From Asterionellopsis glacialis (taxonomy: Eukaryota > Bacillariophyta > Plagiogrammaphyceae > Rhaphoneidales > Asterionellopsidaceae), in NCBI GenBank assembly GCA_014885115.2, contig WKLE02002886.1, forward strand, positions 1 through 20,286: a stretch of 20,286 nucleotides of DNA, given 5' to 3'. Below, one piece after another: positions 2,559-20,286 of this stretch. Made by a program: the position numbers and the translations under genes. Every line of letters starts with the position of its first letter. The first letter of the stretch is position 1. Under the pieces are notes generated by a model. That model saw only the letters and a program-made list of their open reading frames with translations, was not told the DNA's origin and ran no database searches.

Positions 2559-3770
2559 TTATTCACCATCATTCGGCATTAAAAAACGGATTGCTTTTGG
2601 TGCTACACGTATAGTAGCCGGGGTAAAGCCTACTAACTCTCCATCAGCTTCAATACTGCAGGGGCTGTTATCATTGCTATTATTGATCCTGATACTTTCT
2701 AGAAGAACTTTGTTGGTATGCTTGTAGACTACCTCAGGATGTTTGAGTTTTATACCTTTCTTCAATTTGTTTATATTCTTTAAATACTCCCAAGTGCCCA
2801 TATTACCAAATATTGTAACATGAAATTGACCATCCAGAACACTGGCATCAGGAGCGACACAGATCCCATCACCAAAATATCTACCATTTGCCACAGTAAG
2901 TTGTAACAACTTACCACTCCATTGCCAAGAGGAGGAGGAAGAGGGATTGATTTCCTCTTCCTTATTGTCCTTATTATCCTTATTGTCGTTGTCACCGTCA
3001 TCACTACTTGTGCAACTCAAATCCTTTTTAACATAAACCATGAATGCTTTTAAAATGTGTTTTACATAATTGAAGCTTGGACCTAACATACTATTTTTTG
3101 CTTGTTCTTTACGTTGTACAACATCTGGACTTATTCCCACACCTGCTATATTGATAAAATAACGAATCTCATTCGTTTCATGTATTGTGATCTCCCCTAC
3201 ATCTATCTTCTTCCCCTGATTACTAGAAGTAGTACTCGAACTATTGCTATTGCTATCGCTTATAATCAAATCTATAATTTGTTTCATCCCATTCGATTTG
3301 TTGGAATCAATGTGGACCGTTCTCACAAAATCGTTTCCAGATCCATAGGGTAACACTCCAATTACGGGATAGTCACTGGCACAATTGGTAGTATTTTTAG
3401 AAGTAGACTTGTTACTTGATAAAACACCATTTATTACTTCGTGTAAAGTACCATCACCACCAACCGCGATCAAATAATCACAAGAAGTACTTTGGCTACT
3501 ACCACTATTACCATCGTCTTGTTGTTGTTGCTGTTCTACAACTTGTCGGGCCAATTCAATGGCATGAGATTTTCGTTGCGTAGGAATAAATTGAACATTT
3601 TTCAACATCAAATTCAATAATGATGACAAATTACTATTCGTATTTGTAGTCTCATCATTCTGCTTTTCCTTGATTTGTTCTTGACAATAATATTCAAACT
3701 TGGAACGTACTTTGGTTACCAAACAACGTTTCTTGTCTTTGTTGTTGATAATAAACACAATATTCACCAT
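2559..3770 (-). CDS. Diacylglycerol/sphingosine-type lipid kinase (DAGK catalytic family)
   Basis: This 403-residue protein has an ATG at 3770-3768 and a TAA at 2561-2559. The N-terminus (MVNIVFIINN) fits the first strand of the DAGK_cat fold, although the usual NP..G turn is degenerate. The nucleotide-binding GGDGT motif is at residues 104-108 (IAVGGDGTLHEVINGVL), and the second conserved loop GSGNDFVRT is at 143-151. The C-terminal lobe carries GRYFGDGICVAPDASVLDG (about 296-314) and IEADGE (373-378), typical of YegS/DgkB/ceramide kinase-like enzymes. These enzymes phosphorylate diacylglycerol or sphingoid bases using ATP; the exact lipid cannot be told from sequence. Gln, Ser/Asn and Asp/Asn/Lys inserts (about 79-96, 171-186, 252-275) interrupt the fold at likely surface loops. 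No signal peptide or membrane span is seen. It is divergent from the sterol desaturase, across 1 kb. Confidence 0.9.
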   Translation of the reverse strand: MVNIVFIINNKDKKRCLVTKVRSKFEYYCQEQIKEKQNDETTNTNSNLSSLLNLMLKNVQFIPTQRKSHAIELARQVVEQQQQQDDGNSGSSQSTSCDYLIAVGGDGTLHEVINGVLSSNKSTSKNTTNCASDYPVIGVLPYGSGNDFVRTVHIDSNKSNGMKQIIDLIISDSNSNSSSTTSSNQGKKIDVGEITIHETNEIRYFINIAGVGISPDVVQRKEQAKNSMLGPSFNYVKHILKAFMVYVKKDLSCTSSDDGDNDNKDNKDNKEEEINPSSSSSWQWSGKLLQLTVANGRYFGDGICVAPDASVLDGQFHVTIFGNMGTWEYLKNINKLKKGIKLKHPEVVYKHTNKVLLESIRINNSNDNSPCSIEADGELVGFTPATIRVAPKAIRFLMPNDGE

Positions 3771-4149: not shown

Positions 4150-4756
4150 CAATCATACATCATAAATAATACAGATACATACATTTTAAAAAATTATCTT
4201 CACAACGGCGGGAAAAATTATGTCAATCATGGACTCCTGCTAAATGAAATTTCTTGTTCACAGTTCAAATATACTGGCACATTTTATAGAATTGAATAAG
4301 TAAAAGTTTACATGTTCGTAAGACTTTAGTTGAAAAATAAAGTATTATGTGAAAAAGTGAACGTCCGAGGCAGTCAGTCTAGTTTTGATCCTATCAACTG
4401 TATATTCATCTAACGTAGTTAACAAGAATAACCAGAAACCCGGAACTGATCATTGGCAACTAGTTAGTTAGTAGAAAAGATTAGTTGAGATACTGCAGTC
4501 TAGTGAAAATCTACACATGGTATTATACCTACGACTCGTGCCACAAATGAGAACTCTTTTGTACAAGGCGATACACCGTCGATATCGGATAGAGGTGACC
4601 TCCTGTTTGTGTGACTCACCCGCGCTCATCTCATGCTTCTCTTGTTTGAAAAACGGGTTCAACGACACATTGAACCGCATATCCCTCTTCACAAGCTCAC
4701 TCTAGCTACCGTACTCACCTGTTAGAGGTCCAGGTTGACTCTCTCCATCAAAGATA

Positions 4757-4778
4757 GACAGAGAGAGACAGAGAGAGA
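4757..4778 (+). repeat. Tandem GACAGAGAGA repeat before the desaturase start
   Basis: Two direct copies of a 10-mer (4757-4766, 4767-4776), plus a partial third, end 14 bp upstream of the chosen ATG. This is probably part of the 5' leader of the sterol desaturase mRNA. Purine-rich repeats like this are common microsatellites, and no function is claimed. Confidence 0.7.
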
Positions 4779-4791
4779 ACTTGAACAGAAT

Positions 4792-5916
4792 ATGATGATA
4801 TTTCCATCGAAACAATCCTACGCACTGTCATTGCTGGTAACATGCTTGGTTGTATCCGTCACGTACGCTGCATGGTGGGACAAAAGTAACTCGACAAATG
4901 ATGCTAATAATAATGCCGATGATCTCCTTGGTGGCAGTGCGGACGACACAGCAACAGTTCCATTCCCTGGTCGTACATGGTTAGATACAATGGCACTGAA
5001 CAAAGACAATGCATTTGCATGGAATGGTGTAGAATATACGTCGGCGTACGATGCCTTATTGAACGGGACACCTCAACATCATTTAGTACGAAATTTCAAT
5101 GCATGGCTGAATTCATGGCTCTTTTCCACCCAACAAGTGGAACAAATGGTGCAATACACACAATCCTTGGACTATGCACATTACGTGTTATGCTATTTAC
5201 GTAATTTTGTCGGTGCCATGGTGGTCTATTATGGAACCTCCCTCTTCTTTCATTATCATATTTACATTCACCCCCGATCGCAAACTATATTTAAAGATCG
5301 TGAACGTCCATCCTGGGATACCATTTGGGATCAAATTAAATTATCTCAGGCCTCCATGTTTCTCTACATAACTCTACCCGTGTTGGATGAATATTTGATT
5401 GAACAGGGTTGGACACAAGTCTATTACACGGTAGATGACATTGGCGGCTACGGATGGTACGCTGTATTCACGGTGATCTACTTTGCCTTGGTAGAAATTG
5501 GTATTTATTGGATGCACCGTACACTCCACACCAATAAATTTTTATACAAACATGTACACATGTTACATCACAAATACAACAAACCTGAAACCTTGTCACC
5601 CTGGGCAAGCATTGCCTTTAATCCCTTGGATGGGATATTGCAAGCCTCGCCGTATGTCCTATGTCTACCACTCGTCCCCTGTCATTATTTGACACACTTT
5701 GGATTATTATTCTTTACGGCAGTTTGGGCCACCTACATTCATGATTCCATGGATTTCAATATTGACCCCATCATGGGCAGCAAGTACCACACCATGCACC
5801 ATACACATTATATTTACAATTACGGACAAGTATTTACCTTTTGTGATCAATTCTGGGGGACATTACGTGTTCCGCAAGGGAAAACAGGTGTCAAACCGAC
5901 AAGTAAAACAGCATAG
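4792..5916 (+). CDS. ERG3: Sterol C5-desaturase (lathosterol oxidase)
   Basis: This 374-residue protein runs from ATG at 4792 to TAG at 5914-5916. The frame is open further upstream to a TTG at 4735, but 4792 is its first ATG. It belongs to the fatty acid hydroxylase/sterol desaturase superfamily. The three di-iron histidine boxes are present: HRTLH (242-246), HMLHH (256-260) and HTMHH (333-337). Between them NPLDGILQASPYVLCLPLVP and IHDSMDFN match the C5-desaturase subfamily (plant STE1/yeast ERG3) rather than C4-methyl oxidases. These ER membrane enzymes introduce the delta-5 double bond into delta-7 sterols using O2 and cytochrome b5. Several hydrophobic spans are present. The first about 27 residues form an extra hydrophobic signal-like segment ending near AYA/AWW, followed by an Asn/Asp-rich linker, which makes the N-terminus longer than that of STE1. 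It is tail to tail with the selenoprotein gene. Confidence 0.93.
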   Translation: MMIFPSKQSYALSLLVTCLVVSVTYAAWWDKSNSTNDANNNADDLLGGSADDTATVPFPGRTWLDTMALNKDNAFAWNGVEYTSAYDALLNGTPQHHLVRNFNAWLNSWLFSTQQVEQMVQYTQSLDYAHYVLCYLRNFVGAMVVYYGTSLFFHYHIYIHPRSQTIFKDRERPSWDTIWDQIKLSQASMFLYITLPVLDEYLIEQGWTQVYYTVDDIGGYGWYAVFTVIYFALVEIGIYWMHRTLHTNKFLYKHVHMLHHKYNKPETLSPWASIAFNPLDGILQASPYVLCLPLVPCHYLTHFGLLFFTAVWATYIHDSMDFNIDPIMGSKYHTMHHTHYIYNYGQVFTFCDQFWGTLRVPQGKTGVKPTSKTA

Positions 5917-6178: not shown

Positions 6179-6251
6179 TATTTGTTTTCTTTTTCGCCGA
6201 TTCGAAACAATATCATGATTGTTGATCGAATCAGGTCATTCTTGTACAATA
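6179..6251 (-). promoter_or_regulatory. SECIS element, form 2, for the selenoprotein gene
   Basis: Read on the minus strand, all parts of a eukaryotic SECIS are present in order. The 5' AUGA is at 6239-6236. The 3' side is CGAA at 6196-6193, giving the non-Watson-Crick quartet with tandem G.A pairs (G6237.A6194, A6236.G6195). A continuous 9-bp helix follows: 6234-6226 with 6205-6197, one U.G wobble, otherwise Watson-Crick. Then comes UCAA, with the unpaired AA at 6223-6222, exactly 12 nt after the AUGA, opposite UU. A 4-bp mini-helix CAAU/AUUG (6221-6218 with 6211-6208) closed by a 6-nt loop makes it form 2. A weak lower helix can form between 6251-6246 and 6185-6179. It lies about 195 nt past the TAG stop. 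In eukaryotes SECIS elements in the 3' UTR direct selenocysteine insertion at UGA. Confidence 0.9.
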
Positions 6252-6434: not shown

Positions 6435-7459
6435 CTAAAGACCCTCTGGTATATTATCAATACCAAGATCTTCCAATCCTTCTCGCATGACTTGCTTGAC
6501 ATGGGCCAAGGCATGTCTAGATGTAATTTGTTTGGTACCCGTCACAACTATTTCACCCTTCGAATCAATGATTCGAAGGTATCCCCATCAGGAATGAGCT
6601 AAACCAGCACCCCACTTTTGCATTGCTCTATTGTAGTTCGCATTCGAACGATCCCATGTATTGAATGCACACGGGACAAAAAGCTACAGCACATTTGGAA
6701 AATAAAATACAAGTAGGTGTGGAGTGAGAAGTACTTGACAAAAAAATTAATCTGTAGACGATGCAGTATCCTCTATTCTTTGTTCCATGCAGAAAGACAA
6801 ATCAACATGGCACAATCTATCATTTTTGAATTGAATGAGTGTACCCAAAGTTGAGTAAAGGTATTCATGTTTCGGTATAAAAACTTACCTCTTGTGCTAC
6901 CTTGACAACAAGTGGATCTGCAAAAATAGCACCAGCATCCTTACATCCGGCTCATCCACTCCATTCTACAAAATTGGCAAAGATGGGTTTACCTGTTTCT
7001 TTGGCAATTTCAAGTGCAATATCATAATCTCCATGTTTTGAATCAGGTGTCAAATTTCTGTATATACACACACATATATATAGAATATATGCATGTTGTT
7101 GGATGTATGTATGTTGTTGCAAGGATAAGGTTTCACCACATTATTTTTTAAAAAATTAGGTAAACAAGAAGCATAAAAAAATGTGTGAGAGAATTCAAAA
7201 TTACAAGTATTGCCTTTGTACATATAGGCGCTCTATCTTGCTTTTTTTGTTTGATTGGTTGTACGCCATGTCATAAATCTTACACATAATTGATGGTACC
7301 AAGCTCAACTGCTTGATTGTGAATTGATGTTGATGAAGGGTGTGTTTTGAACAAGGACGAATTCATGGTAGGTTTCCCTTTGTAAGACGATTCTTGGTCT
7401 TGTGGTGGTTCGCCTTGATATTTTTGTTCCTTGTAACGATTCTTATTCCAGAATCTCAT
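6435..7459 (-). CDS. Thioredoxin-like selenoprotein with two in-frame TGA (Sec) codons
   Basis: Exons are 7459-7284, 7057-6889 and 6683-6435, with a TAG stop at 6437-6435. Introns are 7283-7058 (GTAAGA..ATACAG) and 6888-6684 (GTAAGT..TGTAG); both joins keep frame (phase 2, then phase 0). The product is 197 residues. A basic, Gln/Ser-rich N-terminus leads into a thioredoxin-like domain: DYDIALEIAKETGKPIFANF, then EWSGUAGCKDAG, where U94 is TGA at 6954-6952 and C97 completes a UxxC motif. The last exon has LFVPCAFNTWDRSN, then GAGLAHSUWGYLRIID with a second TGA (U147, 6590-6588), and ends in NIPEGL. Protein-like sequence continues unbroken through both TGAs to the TAG, and a form 2 SECIS follows. 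A thiol-disulfide (selenol) oxidoreductase role is inferred; substrate and partners are unknown. The N-terminus is uncertain: an acceptor-like TTTTATAG ends at 7488, so an upstream exon may exist. It is head to head with the sorting-nexin gene. Confidence 0.85.
6588..6590 (-). other. Second in-frame TGA, probable selenocysteine 147
   Basis: TGA is in frame 32 codons into the last exon, between Ser-146 and Trp-148, followed by a good beta strand (YLRIID) and 50 more codons to a TAG. No splice pattern that I can see removes it without losing conserved-looking sequence. Confidence 0.7.
6952..6954 (-). other. TGA codon read as selenocysteine 94 (UxxC motif)
   Basis: TGA falls at the first position of a CxxC-type redox motif (Ser-Gly-Sec-Ala-Gly-Cys-Lys), with the resolving Cys codon TGT at 6945-6943. 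Substitution of Sec for the catalytic Cys of a CxxC motif is the commonest selenoprotein signature. Confidence 0.85.
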
Positions 7460-8348: not shown

Positions 8349-11300
8349 ATGATGACAACCGCAAAAGATGAGAATCCTCCTACAGAATCGTTGTCACAAT
8401 CAGAGCAACAAGAAGAAGACCAACGGGAGCGGGATTCGCCATCATCCTCATTATCGTCCATGATGACCATGTTGACGAATCACATTCCATCCTCGCGACA
8501 GGAATGGTTCAAATATTTGTCCATTGTGATAATTCCTATAGTGGCAACTGGTCATTTAGGATCGTTATGTACATTTATCATTCGTTCCATATGGAACATC
8601 GTTTTAACTTGCATTGGTGTCATGTTGGGGCTCGGACTAGGTCTTGGATTAGCCACGCATGTTCATGATCGTTTGGAACATCTTTGGCAGTTGAATAATA
8701 TCAGTCGCGAAGGGGACAATGATGACTTTTTGAATGATTCCATGCCGACCACACCCGCTGCAACCACAAAACGAACGAGTCGAACGAGTGTCAGGAAAGA
8801 ACATCATCACAAGAATCCCAGCTACAGCAACAGCAACAATAGTCTCATTTCATCGGCGGCTACGGCGAGTTCCACAGGATCTACTGCAATGATGACTGCA
8901 TCATCATCAGCAACTACGACCACGACAAGTACCAGTGTCGACAATACGGTATATGCCTCTCTCATGACGAGTGCGGGGTATGATGTGTCCGATGGGATCC
9001 GTCGCGGACAAATTATACGGTCCACGTCTGATTTTTTTCAAAATTTTTATAAATTTACCAAACATGCAGATCCTCATACATGGATAGGACCGCAAATCAT
9101 GGCGGCACAATGGCCACATTTACCATCCCCTATACGGTACGAAATTGGACGATTCATTGAATTCCTCATGAGAGACTTTGTCGCTATATGGTATTGCATC
9201 GTCGATAGTGGGTGTCCCTACCGTAATGAAAAAGAACATCGGAAGGAGCAACTCAAGCAGCAACAAGACAGTAAGGGAACTCAAGATTCTTTCGAACCTG
9301 ATCAGGACGAACCACAAACTCAACAGCAGCAGCAGCAAACACAAAATCATCATCCTCATATAACTGGTCGTGCCATGGTATGGAGTACAGCTGTTCATCG
9401 TCCTATACCCATGATGAATGCCATGTACCATTCATTAGCTATAGTATTTGGTAATTTATCATCACGCGTAGAACATGTCAATATATTTCAACTATTACTC
9501 TTGAAATGGACCAAAGTATTAAGTCATTCCTTCAAGGTATACCGACAATTACATAAATCAGCATCTCAAAAATTACCACCATCATTATCAGCATCAACAT
9601 CACAAAAATCTTTGACTTCCTTACGACGATCCAATTCAACAACATCCGCACCAGGTACAGTAGCAAAAGAATCTACAACAGAAAGTACACGTAGTATTTA
9701 TGACAAGGATGACAACGACAATATCAACAATCTCCAGAGTAAAACCGACAATCGTATCAATAAGGATGATACTAGTACCAGTAACAACGCCACCACCACA
9801 CCAGTCGCACAAGAAGGGAACGACAATGATCAATACCACCAACAACAACAGCAACAAAAACGACGTCGTAAACGTCCTCATGTATCTGAAATGCAAATGG
9901 CAAAAGAATTTCTTTTAGCTGGTAAATTGCATCAAGCGATTACATTTGGTATGGATGTGCCTAGTTTACTATTTGCAGATGCAGATGGAAGAGATTGTGG
10001 TGTGGGTGGTGGAGATAAAACTAAAACGGCAAAGCCATCGTCGTCCTCAAACAATAACAACAACAATAAAGATGCGCAAGGTGCCTCTTCTCCTACTAAA
10101 TCATCATCACCATCAGCGACGACGACAACAACAACAACTGCTGAAGATATATTGGAACAACGTTTGTTTTCCACCAATATATTAAGTGAATGTGAATTGG
10201 ATTACAACCGTGTATTATCAAGTCGATTTGTTCGACTTTTATTACCACGAAGTGAATTTTCATCACCCATTATATCAACCCTAATGACCGAAATGTTAGC
10301 ATCATGTATCCTATGTCCCATCATGGGATTATTTGCAAAAGATTATGTCAATTCATGGATTTGTATGGGTATTGATATGACAAGTGGTGATAGTAGTAGT
10401 AAAGATTCCAAAGAAGCAAAAGCAAACAAAGAAAAAGGACCACAGGGGAGTGATGAAACAAATGCTTCAAAGGTAGAAAGGGAACAAGGAACAACAACAA
10501 CAACAGCACCTTTAAATACAGAAAGTTTTTCTGAATTAGATCATCGTGGTTCATTTGAAACAGAATTTGAAGACGATGACGACGACGACGATGATGAATT
10601 TGATGAAGAAATATTTCAGGAAAATGATGGTGAAGATGGACTCCAAAACGACGACACGAATCCTATGTTGTCATTAGAAGAGCAGAACAATACTATTGGA
10701 GAGAGTAGCATCGATGGAGAGAAAGAATTAATTGTACCCTTACTATCCGAGTCTCTGGCTGATTTACAGCGATATTTAGACTTTGATGAATGTCGAGAGG
10801 CACGAGCTCAAAGTTATGAACTTGACATTGATTGGGATGATCCCGGTTGTCAAGAAGCTGTTCGTCGTTTAGTATTGATATTGGAAGCTGCATTGCTAAA
10901 TGGATGTCGAAATCATCCAAGAAAGATGAAAAGGAAAGAAATGAATCATGACGACGATGACAATCACGACGTGAAAAATGATTGGATTGGTCCAGCGTCA
11001 AGTAATGATGACAACGATGACGATGCGTTGGATGACAAATATGACAAATCTACTTTGTTCGCCCAGCATCCTTCTTTGTCACAGGTACTCATGGAAATGA
11101 CTAGTGATATTGACATGTTTGAAAATCGAATCAATGCAGAAGAAAAGGATATGGGCGAAGACTACAATGATCATGACGACGACGATGCTTCACAGAACAA
11201 TGAACCAAGTCCTTGTCTTGATCACAATGCTTCGACTGTTGAATTGTCCACATTGCGTACACTTATTGCAGCGTGGCTTCATACAGGTCAGATCCATCAC

Positions 11301-14300
11301 ATCATGTCCATCCTATGTCGCGCACACCAAAGTGTCTTGATACCCTATTATCATAATTATGCATTACTTCGAAATGAACGAATCAACAAGGACTTTTTAA
11401 AACAATTAAAAGCCCTCGATGGAGTTGATGTTTTGGTCGATACCACTGCCGTTGTGTCGAACTCTGACTCGGAAGTCATTAGAAGCAGGACCAAGGTTGT
11501 GATCCTAAAGGACCAGGAACATCAAGGTATCTGCACAAATGACGTGCCTTTTGCTGAACAGCAAGAGTCTACGGCTGACATTAGGAATGAAGCTGTCATA
11601 TCAGATCTCCCAATGGAATCGCCTGATGTTTCACCGAATAAGAAGAAAAGTGATCTGCAGACTTCACCATCCACTGGAGGTGGTTCGCCCTTGTTCAAGG
11701 CAAGTTTAACTGGTAGTGTCTTGGATGTGAAAGATAAGTTTTCAAGACTAATGGGAGAAAACGCCAAGGCAGGGCATGCTGTAAACCCGCACTCAGCTGA
11801 ACTTAGTGGACTGGGCACAGCATCAGCTGTCGCCCTTAGTCAACGTTTTTACACTGGCTCGTCTACTCCAAAATATATCGACTTTAATCGAAACGAAGCT
11901 TGGGCAGGAAGTCTACGGTCTGAACGGATACGCAAATTGCAGTCATGGGCGGCTGCTACAGCTCCGTCAAAAGAAAGGGATTCTCCAGAGGTAATTTACA
12001 GGAAAAATGGTATTGCAGAGCGAGACGTTCTGGTGTTTCTCGATGTTCATAGACTTGCCCGGCTTTTCTACGCAAATACAAGTTTGATTTCGATCCGCAA
12101 TGGGGTAAGACGGAACGAGCCATTGTCTGAAAACATTTCACAAAATAAAGATGAGCGAACATATATTTCTCTATTGGCTGTTGAACCTGTTTGTCCACGA
12201 CGAAGAATTGAAGTACCAGACGACGACTCATCGTTCTTGCTTCGTGCTCAGGTAAGTCCAACTCATCACTTTGTGAAGCTTCTCGTGATGATCCGTTTTG
12301 TCATATTTTATATTCAATCGCATGTATTGCCTTTCCTCCTCTTTACTTTAGACTCGAACACTCAACCCCGTCGGAGTCCATCGAGACCAACGCATACACG
12401 ATCTAAGTTACTTATGCTTTGCCGCCATATATGAGGAACCGGCTTCTATTCCAGGAGACACACGCTATCGTGGTGGGCGGTATATTCGAAACTGTTTAAT
12501 GCGTTACTTTCCGAATGGCCGCAATGCTTCCATTTCTATTTCACCTGATGCACGAAAGCTTGACAATAGAAAGCACGCCGTTCCAGACGACGTTGGTAAC
12601 TTTACAGATAGAACAGCTACCCCTGTTCTATCCCAAAGTTTTCTACGAGAGCGTTACATATGTAAAAAATGGTACCAAAAAGGAGCTGCTCCACGATCGA
12701 GTTCGATTTTGACCAGTACAACTATGGAAGCCACAGACTTTTCGGCTACACCACGCTCAGGAAAGGCGATTGACTTTGCCTACCGAATGTCTCTATTTGA
12801 ATACCCAACAGTTGACTTGGGAGGGAAGAAGTTTATGGTACGGGATTCAGCTGCGGAAGGGCCACATCGAACGGATGCCAGTGCACTAGAAATAAGTGAT
12901 CCTTCTCTTAGTGTTGCTTTGATTGTGATTGGAAATGAGTTGGGATCACCGTCCAATAGCAACACTGCTAAAGCCGAAGAGCAAACAATTGACAAAACAA
13001 GCCATCCAAGTAATATAGAAATGGGAGCAGATGGATATCCCATTTTGTGGTTGAAATCAAAAACCAAAGAAGGTGTCGTTGTCAAACCATATCGTACATC
13101 CTATGTACGTGCAGCATTGCTGATTTCATCGACAAGACAAGATGCTCAAATGAAGGTAAGAGATTCTCTTTGTGCATTTCGTATTATGACATGTATAAAA
13201 ATACCACCCCTAACTGATTACGTGTGGAATTGCAATTGCGTCAGTGCTTGGTGAAATGTATATGTTCAGGTTCGGCAAGAGATGCAACGAAGGAACGGAT
13301 TGAAGAAGAACTTTGGCCAACTTTCAAGCTATTAGAGTATGCCAGCAGCCCTGTACCGGATAAGCAGTCTACACTATTGCGGGATTTAAAATTTGGCATC
13401 AATCATATTGATAGAGATCAACTTCGTCGCAATGGTTTGCTCGTTCCACGTTACCCAACCGTGATCCAATCAATCGACGCAGTTGTAGAAGAAGCTGTCC
13501 ACGCAAAAGACGCTGTTGGTGTTTCAGTGGGAGGAGTTGCACCAAATAGTATGCTTTACAAAATTCGAGTTGTTGCAACAGTTACATTAGATGTGGAAGA
13601 AGGTGACATTTCAATACTGAAGAACTATTATTCCTCTGACAGTGGAGACGTGACAGATAGCACCGACGATCATCAAAATGTACTATTTCGTGAAGAGTGG
13701 GTGGTTTACCGTTCTTACAAGGAATTCACCCATTTACACAAGCACTTGAAGAGTCAAGTTTCGCCATCAGAAACCTTTGCAGCGCAAGCTAGTGCCCGGC
13801 GACTCGTCGATGCTGCCACAGCAGCCTTTACTCATGGAGGAGGAGGGACAACGAACGCATTGCATCGGAATCGAAAGGCGTTGATTCCATCCTTGGGACA
13901 GGCAAACAAGGCAGGTGCGTTGGAATTCACTGCCAAAGCAATCCAAAAGAGACAAAAGATTCTTGATGGGTACTTAGAACATCTTTTGTCGCCAACGAAT
14001 ATGTTAAAGAGATGTCCTGAAGTGTTACTTTTTATTGGTGCATTCAATGCCTTCCCACCAGAAGTTCGAACGGGAGCAGGTCCTGTAACCATTGCTGCTG
14101 ATTCCCTTGGTCGTACTGAAATGGTCCGTACTGTTGTGAAAGTTACAAAAGAAGATCCAAATGAAGTTATCCTAATATCATCAGGGGAGAAATACATTGA
14201 AAGCGAGACTTCAAATCCAAGAAAGGTTGACAACACGAATCAATCTAACAAGGAAATAGCTATTACTCCTAGTCTTCGTGATGAGAAAAGTGCTTCAAAT

Positions 14301-14975
14301 CTAGATGTAGGGCTATCGCCGTCTCCTCATGCAATGACTGATAGTGGTGGTGGTAGTGAAGCAATAACTTCTGGTTCTTCTACTTTGAACGGGAGCCATA
14401 ATACACGCAATAAGAAAAGAAAAATACATATGAAACCTGCAATAAAGGCCAAAATAGAAAAGGTTCCTTTGGGTCAAGTGCGCAATGCACTGTTTGAATT
14501 GGTACGATATCAATTTGATTTTGATAATGCATCATTCTTTCGTTCACGTATGTTTTCTGCTTTGAAAACCATGTCCTTCGCTGTAACAAGTTCATCCGAA
14601 TTTCGTAAAATGTTATATGAAGCCCATGTGAAGCATGTCAATCCTGATGCACTTGGTGGTCTCGTAAAAATGCTATTAGATATATTATGGCCTGATGGTG
14701 TGTTTTTCGACTCGAAACCACCACTAACACCTAGAGAGAGTCAAACTCTTTCGGACGAAACACTCCAAAAGCTGACATCGATATTCCCGGAACAACTTCA
14801 AAGTGTATTGGGACAAGAGATTACGAACGATGGCATGGAAATGTTACATGAAATGTTACAAAATCGATTAGTTTTGCGGAGCATGGCATACATGCTATTT
14901 GATTTAATGTGGCTGGAAATATTCCCTGAACTTCAAGATGTATTGACGGGTGGGTCAGTTCTTGATATAGATTAA
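8349..14975 (+). CDS. Large PXA-PX-Nexin_C sorting nexin (Mdm1/SNX13/SNX14-like)
   Basis: Exons are 8349-12251, 12352-13155 and 13245-14975; introns are 12252-12351 (GTAAGT..TTTAG) and 13156-13244 (GTAAGA..GTCAG), both phase 0. The product is 2145 residues. It begins with a polar segment and then two adjacent hydrophobic spans (about 54-104), a likely ER hairpin anchor. A PXA domain follows (about 260-680, with RDFVAIWYCIVDSGCPY at 275-291 and a second part near 625-675), split by Gln/Ser/Asn inserts. Strongly acidic low-complexity runs come next. A helical region near 965-1025 sits where the family carries an RGS domain, but I cannot assign it. A PX domain lies at about 1672-1837 (VVYRSYKEF is the R..F phosphoinositide-binding strand), and Nexin_C at about 1976-2136 (WPDGVFF, LQN, LFDLMWLEIFPEL). 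Family members tether ER to other organelles and handle lipids. At roughly twice the length of SNX13/14, it is inflated by inserts and an unassigned block at about 1310-1670. Confidence 0.9.
10569..10614 (+). repeat. GAC/GAT/GAA acidic tract in the sorting nexin
   Basis: A run of GAC, GAT and GAA codons encodes an almost pure Asp/Glu stretch. It is one of several (also near 10948-11034 and 11154-11187) that separate the PXA region from the rest. The tract stays in frame, so it is probably tolerated as a disordered linker. Confidence 0.75.
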
Positions 14976-15913: not shown

Positions 15914-18900
15914 CTAGTATGCTGCTTTTTCAATAGTCGCCATGAGACTCTGGGAAACTGATGCACATGTATCGGGGCAATTTGTAGCTGCCGAGAAACA
16001 TAAAAGCATTAGGTCCTGCTCGTAGACCTTTTGCATCGCACGTACATTATCTGGCAAGGTAGCGTAAGTCTGCAACAAACCCAATGCACTCCTTTGAAGA
16101 TTCTCATCGTCAAGATGCCGTTTCATGGCAACAATTAGGATACTCAATGTCAGCTCTCTCATCGCCGAGGATACGCCACTTCGGTTATCCATCACAATGT
16201 TAGACAAGGCATCAAATGCATGTGCCGCTACTTGTGTATCACTGACGTTAATCCATGTCGAATAAAGAATGGCATCTTCTGCTCCAGCATCACGAACAGC
16301 AGCCCTATTTTTAGAGACCCGGGCCATGCTTTTGATAGTGACCAAAACATCATTCTGTAAAAGAATTGATTCGGGATGTCGTGTCATTGCATTAACAACC
16401 GCCTCGATGGCACCTCGTTCGCCAATCACTTGACCACCACCAGAACGCTGACTCAACATGTAGAAAATAGAGCAACCATATGATTGAACGTCATGCGAAT
16501 CAATCTGGTGTTTCATTGACTTGACAATCAACTCGCAACCGTTACAATTCACAAACTGAACTTGGTATGGTTTTTGCTGTTTGCAAAGAACCAACAACAT
16601 ATTGAGACCTACAGTTTGGACGTCGAGATCATCAAGATGTTGGTCCAACATGGGTAAGACAGCTTGGAATAGGTCAGTCGATACATTTCTTAGAATGTCA
16701 TCACTAACTTTCGGCAGTATCCCTATAAGAATACGACACGGGAAGCCCACAAGACGTTCATGGGTACTATGTACCATCATTAAACGGCAAAGATGATTAA
16801 GCAGCGCCGGACCAAGACCAGTGTCTACTAAGGCTTCTATGTCTGCATCCACTAACGTTTCAAAAATGGATAAAATGTCCATTTGAATTGTCGCATTCAT
16901 CAAAAATTCATCCAAGCACCGCAACAGAAGTGGAATGGATTTCCCTAGCTCCTTGGCGACAACATTTGCTCCAGTACCGCTCGTTGACATGGCAGCAAGA
17001 GTGGATGTTGTACGAGATATTTCTTGTTCGTCGCTGCTTTTCAGACTAGCGAGTAATGGGGACACACCTGCAGCTGTACTCTCTCCATCTAGATTTGTTG
17101 AGTTTTGGCAGGAGATGATATCCGCCAAGACTGACGGGTCAACACCTTTTAGTGTTTTCCGACGTAGCTTTCTTACGAAGCCCTCAGGATGATTCTTGCG
17201 GATTTCAGCAATCTGTTCTCGAACTCCAGATTCTCGTGGAAACCAAGTATCTAAGGATTCTTTCGCTTCGGCTCTATCGCTTTGGAATAACTCGTCGTAC
17301 AGATGCCCCCACCCATCGCACAAGATCCACTTGGGATTCAGAGGGAATGTGTATCCCTCTTTGATTTTCTCACTAAGGAAATCTTGGACACCTTTAGGGT
17401 CCATATACTTCCAATGCTCAGGTAAGGAATCAGAAATGACAAGGAATTCATCATCCAGATCCTGTGGGAAGTAATAATTGAAACACTCCGCACCGTGTCT
17501 GACAGCACCATTTCGAATCTCGCCACTTGCAAGAGTATTCGCTGCTTTTTCCATGATGGAATAGGATGCAGGGTCTCCAAAACCTGTTGGGAGTAAAGAA
17601 TGAAGGTAATGATTTAAGAGTGATGAATATAAAATGAACAATAAAAAACACCAAAATGGATAAGAGATGAAAACGTACCAAATCGAGGCATGACAGGATG
17701 AATATCTTCACCCTCCCATGGGTTTTCTATTACTTCCAACCAACGACTTGTCCAACTTTCTGGCCCTGGATTCGCAAGGATATCTCGAATTCTATTCACG
17801 CTCCATTTTAACACATCTATTTGATCAGATGGGAGTGGCTGGTGAAAGGAAATACGTTGAGATCCCACCAGGAAAGCATCAAAATCAGAAACAACCGGGA
17901 AAACGCGATTGTGTTCTTCGTAGGCCATGAGTAATTCGAATGGATTCATTGCTGTGTCAGTATCCAAATCCGCGTATTGCCATCTGTAAAAAGAGAATGA
18001 CGTTTCAAAAGTTTATACCAACAGTGTGTCAATGGATGTGTATCAAGAAATATGAGAAACAAACACAAAATAAGGAGATGCGCATACATTGTTGGCAGTA
18101 TACTTACAAAACAGCCCTGGGATTACCGTCTATCGGGGGAGAACAGAGGGATCCGATATTTTTATCCTGAAATGCAGGAATTGAGGGTCGTCCACCATCG
18201 TATTGAGACCCTTTTGGTCTACTAATATCTTGTTGGACGATGTAGGCCTCCCAAAATAATCGAACCGGAACCTCAATGCCGTAACAGTGAGGTGCATAGT
18301 CGTCGATATCTCGGATGGTTGGATTATCCATTTCGTATGCCAATGCATTTTGAACTTCCTCCCAATTGAATTCTCCCGTCATATCTCCACCTGTCGATAA
18401 ATCTGGAATGCTTTGAATCATGCTTTTAGCGGTTGCTACTGACAACATCATATCTTCACAAACTTGTTCTAGAACGGATGCCACCGAGTCTCTTGCTACA
18501 GCAGTGGAATAGAAAATTCTCAGGGTATCAGTTGTGGACAAGGTTTTAATTTTGGTTTTGTGGTGATTCTCACTAATTTGCAAAAAGGGGACAAAAGCGG
18601 ACAGCTTGCCTCTCTTGGCAGATTTTCCTTTAATGTCCAATCCCTTCCCAACCGCTTCACCTGTCATCATCTTGCGGATAGCATCTGTACTGGTCGGACG
18701 GAATATAGCAAAGAGTGATGCTCTTGCAGTGCTTTGAAGTCGAGGGTTCACTGGGAATCCACGTTTCGATAATGTCATGATGAGACTTCTTCGGTTCTCA
18801 TTCGCTATGACACGTTCATCCCGAATTTGTTTCACTCCTGTGATGTAATCAAGAATTTGTCGTCGCGGATCTGTCTGGTGAAAGGAAGCACCCCAATGTC

Positions 18901-20286
18901 GAAGTCTGAACCCTAAATACTTTAATAGTGCCTCGCGCTCTTCTTCACTGAGACCCTTCTTTTCTAAATTTCGTTTGGCTGCTTTTTTGAATTTCGAGAC
19001 AGCTGATGCGACCTTGAGACTAAGTCCAAAGTTCATGACTGGTAAATCATCCTCTTCACCCTCACCACTCCCATAAGATGGAACAGGCAAGCGTTGGTCA
19101 GGACTTAATTCCTTTTCATCCTCCACGAAACGGAAAAACAAATGATCATCCTTAAAGTCTTGTTCATCTTCATCTTCAGGTCGGATGTGTTTGAATAGAC
19201 CTAGGTCTTTCGATAATTTTTGTCCCAAATGAACAGCATCACGCTTTGAATTCGCCAATGATGAAAAGATCATCCAATTCACAGCATCTGCACCAATGAA
19301 ACATTTATGAAATGTCATATTCCGGTGTTTATGATTTTTTGTTTTGACGCCGTTCTTAAACAATGTGGCTGTATCTTCAAGAGTACCAGTCGATTCTGAT
19401 TTATCACCCTTGAGTTTCGATATAGGTACTTCATATCCCTCCGGATAGGTCCGATCTTGAATGTCTGTGAAACGATAATACCGTAAATCATCAAAGAATG
19501 GAACACCTGCGGGGACATGTTCAAACAAATTCAATTGCTTCATCAAACGTTTCCCTATCTCTTCTGCCTCTCCACGTGATGACGCAAATTCAGCTGTTAA
19601 CAACCAATCAACCGCATCAGAGCCAATAAAGGTTTCAATTTTCTGTGCCAGGACAACCGTAGTTTTAACTTCAATGCCCAATTCAAACGCTTGTGCAACT
19701 TCCAGTAGTATGGCTGATTCTTCATCTTGTGCCGGAAATTGAACTGCCGGTGATATGTACCTTATTGACCCTCTCATTGATTTTCTATCTAATGATATTT
19801 CAGTCGGTGCAAAGTCTTTTAGTGATGAATTCAGTTTATCCAATGCTTCTTCCAATTCTTCTTCATCTGTAGTAGATTCATCATCCTGTTCATATGTTGG
19901 TGCAAAGCTAACACGACTTGTCGCTGCCCTTGATGTGGGTACCACTGCTGTACTAGCACTGCTCGTACTGCCACTCAAACTGCTTGGCGGTTGTGGTGCA
20001 AAACTAACTCGTTGCCGTATACTTGACCTAGTGGAAGGCGGCGCCACAGTTTCATATAAATCACGAAGACTCGGTGATGCTTTACGTGTCAGCACGGGTC
20101 TACCAGGCCTAGCAGCCGCTGCTGGTTTCTGTTCGCTATGTACACCACCAGCCGTATGGAACGTATCGCCCGCCTTGTCTTTCGCGTCAACCTTCATGTA
20201 ATCCTCGTCCTCGTCGGAACGATATCCTGGCGGTAAACTAGCCACGGATTCTATTGACTTTCCTGAGGAATTAAAGGATGCTACGC
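15914..20286 (-). CDS. DEP-DEP protein with conserved central block and armadillo-like tail, 5' end outside window
   Basis: Exons are >20286-18108, 17983-17679 and 17583-15914 (TAG at 15916-15914). Introns are 18107-17984 (GTAAGT..TACAG) and 17678-17584 (GTACGT..AACAG), both frame-consistent. The frame is open to the right edge, so the start is missing; about 1383 residues are visible. A disordered Ser/Pro region carries two RVSFAP motifs. It is followed by DEP 1 (19699-19466; ETFIGSDAVDWLL, then LNLFEHV) and DEP 2 (19363-19124; CFIGADAVNWMI, then LGLFKHI). A long, highly ordered-looking block crosses both introns and includes NALAYEMDNPTIRDIDDYAP, EEHNRVFPVVSDFDAFLVG, PESWTSRWLEVIEN and LNPKWILCDGWGHLYD; I do not recognise its family. 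The last roughly 400 residues are leucine-rich helical repeats of armadillo/HEAT type. DEP domains usually mediate membrane or GPCR/lipid targeting, so a signalling or membrane-recruited scaffold is inferred. Enzymatic activity is not evident. Confidence 0.85.

Follow-up and report, generated by a model that had tools for sequence, protein, structure and literature searches.

A diatom gene with two in-frame TGA codons likely encodes a two-selenocysteine thioredoxin-fold protein related to the bacterial VPGUxxT family

Thioredoxin-like proteins of the bacterial VPGUxxT family, tabulated as 'OS_HP5' in PMC13188914, have been counted among the prokaryotic selenoproteins that carry one selenocysteine (Sec), and proteins with two or three Sec residues, such as PDI_e, MSP, a two-Sec SELENOJ, and SELENOW, are described from algae and protists in the texts of PMC7539508 and PMC2375036. 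This study concerns a gene on the minus strand of a 20,286-nucleotide (nt) window, namely positions 1 to 20,286 of contig WKLE02002886.1 of the diatom Asterionellopsis glacialis (NCBI GenBank assembly GCA_014885115.2). The gene encodes a 197-residue protein (hereafter the window protein) with a predicted thioredoxin fold and two in-frame TGA codons, both of which likely specify Sec. On balance, the evidence favors a two-selenium oxidoreductase that is a diatom-side, single-domain relative of the VPGUxxT proteins. PDI_e carries a GUGUU motif and SELENOW a UxxU motif (PMC7539508), whereas the window protein would combine UxxC with a second Sec 53 residues further on; it is by what those texts describe, and not by sequence, that PDI_e, MSP, SELENOJ, and SELENOW are set apart from it. 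The algal survey comprises 42 selenoprotein families, and none described in its text has the motif of the window protein (PMC7539508).

As the initial annotation had proposed, three exons and two introns with GT...AG ends yield a single frame from ATG to TAG (Table 1), the sole interruptions of which are the TGA codons at residues 94 and 147. The first TGA indeed falls within the U-A-G-C redox motif recognized at that stage, where it is followed by Cys97. With both TGA codons entered as Cys, a protein search retrieved 38 relatives at E <= 0.001, and the best of these (P0001; E 2.3e-81; 75% identical in alignment A1) aligns without a gap over both predicted splice junctions. The three-exon frame with two in-frame TGA codons is therefore confirmed as real and not a chance product, its splicing being predicted. 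The claim that protein-like sequence flanks each TGA is likewise borne out by the full-length relatives, in which the sequence is conserved on either side of both positions. A hydrophilic stretch opens the window protein, its last residues are IPEGL, and ordinary gene finders are predicted to cut it short. Searches of the genome (40.3 Mb, 1503 contigs) with its C-terminal part matched only the exons of this gene, and a search with relative P0043 matched only two of these exons. A single copy interrupted by two TGA codons would fit a pseudogene or a sequencing error with two nonsense changes, but this explanation is highly improbable given that relatives on many contigs share both places and that the frame is otherwise intact and conserved.

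The states of the relatives at the two places are informative in this respect. A profile search gave 130 matches, 120 of them listed, and 123 distinct proteins were classified overall. More than half of these (76/123) stop exactly before position 94, and 22 carry W at both 94 and 147. The remaining combinations at 94/147 are Cys/Asp in six relatives, Pro/Ser in two, and Ser/Asp, Ser/Thr, and Cys/Cys (P0039) in one each, while P0025 has Cys94 and then stops exactly before 147. Set aside in these counts were proteins with W at 94 and no letter at 147 (P0028, P0048, P0057, and P0076), with W at 147 and no letter at 94 (P0024, P0027, P0047, P0049, and P0050), with Cys at 94 only (P0055 and P0123), and with intron-like sequence at 94 (P0022 and P0023). 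Since the standard code makes TGA a stop and code 4 makes it Trp, the occurrence of both stop-at-94 and W/W records is most simply read as TGA at both places in the relatives. That W stands for TGA is suggested by P0054, which stops where P0002 carries W, the preceding residues being identical at 84 of 86 positions. As most relatives are recorded either cut at the first place or with Trp/Trp, the family appears to be widely mis-recorded in the searched protein collection. For instance, the public protein of Seminavis robusta (P0068) is an 85-residue stub that stops at the first place. This protein and P0021 of Epithemia clementina (Cys/Asp) are the two relatives assigned to a named organism, and both organisms are diatoms. 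The expectation that homologs would have Cys or Sec at position 94 largely held, the exceptions being P0026, with Ser, and the degenerate P0051-P0053, with Pro/Ser. When the diatom-side alignment A2 was scanned against viral contigs and genome contigs, no confirmed relative emerged, and a search of plasmids with P0003 gave no match.

Two further readings of the TGA codons bear on these records. Taken at face value, the 22 W/W relatives would fit TGA as an ordinary Trp codon in these organisms, with a genuine W and no selenium involved. This is scarcely credible, as open reading frames of the window under the standard code extend over 600, 403, 393, 583, 575, and 713 residues without TGA, P0039 has Cys at both places, and the genome encodes both tRNA-Sec and Sec synthase. 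Alternatively, only the first TGA might be Sec, the second being a true stop and the remainder of exon 3 a remnant. P0025 conforms to such an arrangement, yet the region past residue 147 is conserved in full-length relatives, and among the 33 relatives in which both places are reliably aligned, residue 147 is W in 22, Cys in 1, and Asp in 7, which makes a true stop at this point very improbable.

Two components of the Sec machinery were found in the same genome. They are a tRNA-Sec with the anticodon TCA (Rfam; the other rescanned matches were one tRNA-Ser and one tRNA-Leu) and Sec synthase (SecS, E 6.3e-109), and in-frame TGA codons also occur elsewhere, in one of three Rdx, two of three GPx, and the only Sep15/SelM matches. 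Downstream of the gene lies a hairpin resembling a selenocysteine insertion sequence (SECIS) element; its ATGA stands 196 nt after the TAG codon and is followed after 12 nt by AA, then by a ministem and GA. Its stem comprises 9 base pairs, and the 51-nt piece has a folding energy of -13.8 kcal/mol (z -2.45, equaled in 4 of 200 shuffles). A home-made descriptor scored the hairpin at -11.2, the lowest of nine candidates on both strands of the window; when the 500 nt downstream were dinucleotide-shuffled 2000 times, 17 shuffles reached this value. The same descriptor detected similar elements downstream of the Rdx gene (-12.8) and the Sep15/SelM gene (-13.5), in both cases on the strand of the gene. 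It is proposed that the hairpin, lying in the 3' untranslated region, would bring in the genome-encoded machinery and that both TGA codons would thereby be read as Sec94 and Sec147. Recurring recoding places, a SECIS-like element, Sec machinery genes, and the fold model together support the view of the initial annotation that this locus specifies a selenium-dependent oxidoreductase with two Sec codons. The gene is very probably a two-Sec selenoprotein gene.

Several observations weigh against the proposed two-Sec, two-selenium interpretation. The equation of W with TGA is indirect, as it is drawn from the protein records of the relatives and not from their DNA. The Rfam model SECIS_1 gave no match to the hairpin, either in the window at the gathering score or in parts of it at E up to 10; this result is not weighed strongly, because the model fails to detect the Sep15/SelM element as well and scores the Rdx element at 13.7 bits, under the cut-off of 35. 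The hairpin was noticed by eye before the descriptor was composed, and the descriptor also produced chance-like hits, one of -11.6 located some 2 kb beyond a GPx match and another of -11.0 on the opposite strand beside the Sep15/SelM match, and it gave no convincing element near the two GPx genes. Finally, all six Cys/Asp relatives combine Cys94 with Asp at 147 and P0025 combines Cys94 with a stop there, so places 94 and 147 are not strictly tied.

The thioredoxin-like fold anticipated for the window protein agrees with a confident AlphaFold model. The modeled fold resembles the thioredoxin folds of AGR2/AGR3, ERp18, DsbD-gamma, and DsbH-type proteins at a sequence identity of 14-19%; none of them is known to contain Sec. 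The predicted thioredoxin fold of the window protein is of the AGR/ERp18 type, and neither an endoplasmic reticulum (ER) signal peptide nor an ER-retention signal is apparent in it by eye. Its score against Pfam Thioredoxin_7 (PF13899) is 20.4 bits, under the gathering cut-off of 27, while P0039 lies just over it (28.9 bits) and 4 of 30 relatives match at E <= 0.01; two further Thioredoxin_7 places exist in the genome, one over the cut-off (L019) and one under it (L020). Sequence searches of the PDB gave no match at E up to 1 with alignment A2, and 3f9u (E 0.15) and 3ira (E 0.6) with alignment A4. The viral fold library gave no match at E <= 0.001.

Although no family was named in the initial annotation, sequence comparison indicates that the nearest described one is that of the bacterial VPGUxxT thioredoxin-like (seleno)proteins, types 2 and 1 (NCBIfam NF041383 and NF041382). 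The type 2 profile matches 29 of 30 aligned relatives (A3) at E <= 0.01 and the window protein at E 1e-10 (41.8 bits, profile positions 9-112 of 287), which is far under the curated cut-off of 275 bits, and a profile comparison with six bacterial members (probability 99.4, E 2.4e-21) shows the thioredoxin domain to be homologous over its length. The bacterial proteins are approximately 300 residues long with a weakly MsrA-like second part, whereas the window protein is single-domain and stops at residue 197; the motif is V-P-G-U in the former and W-S-G-U in the latter. Where the window protein carries its likely Sec147, the bacterial proteins have Ala, and the second Sec therefore appears to have been added later. 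Eight bacterial loci were found, three of which (L023-L025) cover most of the query, and the other five match a short part and were read by eye. The first place is Cys in L023 and L024 and TGA in L025, a locus in a metagenome-assembled genome of Verrucomicrobiales (CALGZA010000003.1) that reads VPG-U-GGC and hence represents a bacterial UxxC form, in which the Sec codon occupies the first place and xxC follows, as in the window protein. Six places in the diatom genome match NF041383, all under the cut-off. One of them, L031 (G000:C708:36201-37076, minus strand), lies in a 476-codon open frame that matches the type 2 profile over positions 1-284 with 126.6 bits (cut-off 275) and reads LPGDKETG at the motif; it appears to be a two-part relative that has lost the redox residue, and L032 is a second, weaker place of this kind.

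With regard to function, Sec94 would head the active-site helix at its N-terminal end and act as nucleophile in a U-x-x-C pair formed with Cys97. Sec147 sits two residues before the fourth strand of the model, and in thioredoxins the loop before this strand holds the cis-proline and faces the CxxC motif. W is never paired with a different residue in the 33 relatives in which both places are reliably aligned. For a tree, the letters at both places were masked in U/U rows, and P0044 (W/W, partial) and other partial proteins were left out. As 16 of its 33 inner branches are open, the bootstrap is not settled, and P0039, P0021, P0045, P0040, and P0042 form long branches, only starred groups were used. 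Two U/U rows share a starred group (100/98) with the Cys/Asp protein P0019, so both Sec residues have probably been lost together at least once; the starred branches require the U/U label to have changed no fewer than two times. Because the two places are coupled and residue 147 lies in the loop before the fourth strand, it is favored with moderate confidence that Sec147 takes part in the chemistry of Sec94, as a further selenium with which Sec94 could form a bond. The protein would likely be a soluble reductase of the thiol/disulfide or peroxide type. A more specific scenario is offered tentatively, in which Sec94, placed at the N-terminal end of the helix, and Sec147, in the cis-proline loop, form a diselenide switch; this would have arisen as a VPGU-type thioredoxin domain turned into a single-domain protein of diatoms and acquired the second Sec, and the pair would have been kept or lost together thereafter. 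It may instead be that both TGA codons encode Sec but the enzyme works by Sec94 and Cys97 alone, with Sec147 structural or near-neutral. The Asp at 147 in the six Cys94 relatives and the Ala in the bacterial family imply a CxxC chemistry without need of this residue, whereas the consistent pairing of W with W in 22 of 33 relatives (P0022 and P0023 set aside), the probable joint loss in P0019, and the cost of maintaining Sec all argue against an idle Sec147, which makes this alternative rather doubtful.

If the two-selenium interpretation is correct, a two-Sec family with many members would be added to the eukaryotic selenoproteome, and it would be tied to a bacterial family that the table of PMC13188914 lists from prokaryotes only. 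The paired places would also allow the question of why two seleniums are retained in one protein at a spacing of 53 residues to be tested directly. The window protein may be identical with 'TlpA', 'Hypo', or a PDI subfamily (PDI_a-d) of the algal survey (PMC7539508), or with the thioredoxin-fold protein of T. pseudonana (PMC2375036). Among the papers listed by full-text literature searches, none names the window protein in its title or the opening of its abstract.

Table 1. Positions of the two-TGA gene, the downstream hairpin, and neighboring genes within the window
Feature	Position	Strand	Details
Exon 1	7284..7459	-	ATG at 7459; N-terminus matches relative P0001
Intron 1, predicted	7058..7283	-	GTAAGA...ATACAG
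Exon 2	6889..7057	-	Contains Sec94 and Cys97
In-frame TGA, first	6952..6954	-	Residue 94, likely Sec, in U-A-G-C
TGT codon	6943..6945	-	Cys97 of U-A-G-C
Intron 2, predicted	6684..6888	-	GTAAGT...CTGTAG
Exon 3	6435..6683	-	TAG at 6437-6435
In-frame TGA, second	6588..6590	-	Residue 147, likely Sec, in AHS-U-WGYLRI
SECIS-like hairpin, form II	6190..6240	-	ATGA 6239-6236, AA 6223-6222, GA 6195-6194
Diacylglycerol kinase-like	2559-3770	-	Pfam
Fatty acid hydroxylase	4735-5916	+	Pfam
PXA/PX/sorting nexin-like	8349-14975	+	Pfam
DEP-domain protein	18104-20245	-	Pfam

The four neighboring genes typed by Pfam in the window showed no link to selenium. Among the relatives, P0002, P0003, P0004, P0009, P0014, and P0015 share an N-terminus of Met-Gly followed by basic residues, a feature absent from P0001 and the window protein that recalls N-myristoylation. 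In addition, P0020, P0043, P0045, and P0046 form a Cys94 group with Asp at 147 in which Cys97 has been lost (replaced by Val or Ala); they represent a one-Cys version of the protein, and their chemistry must differ.
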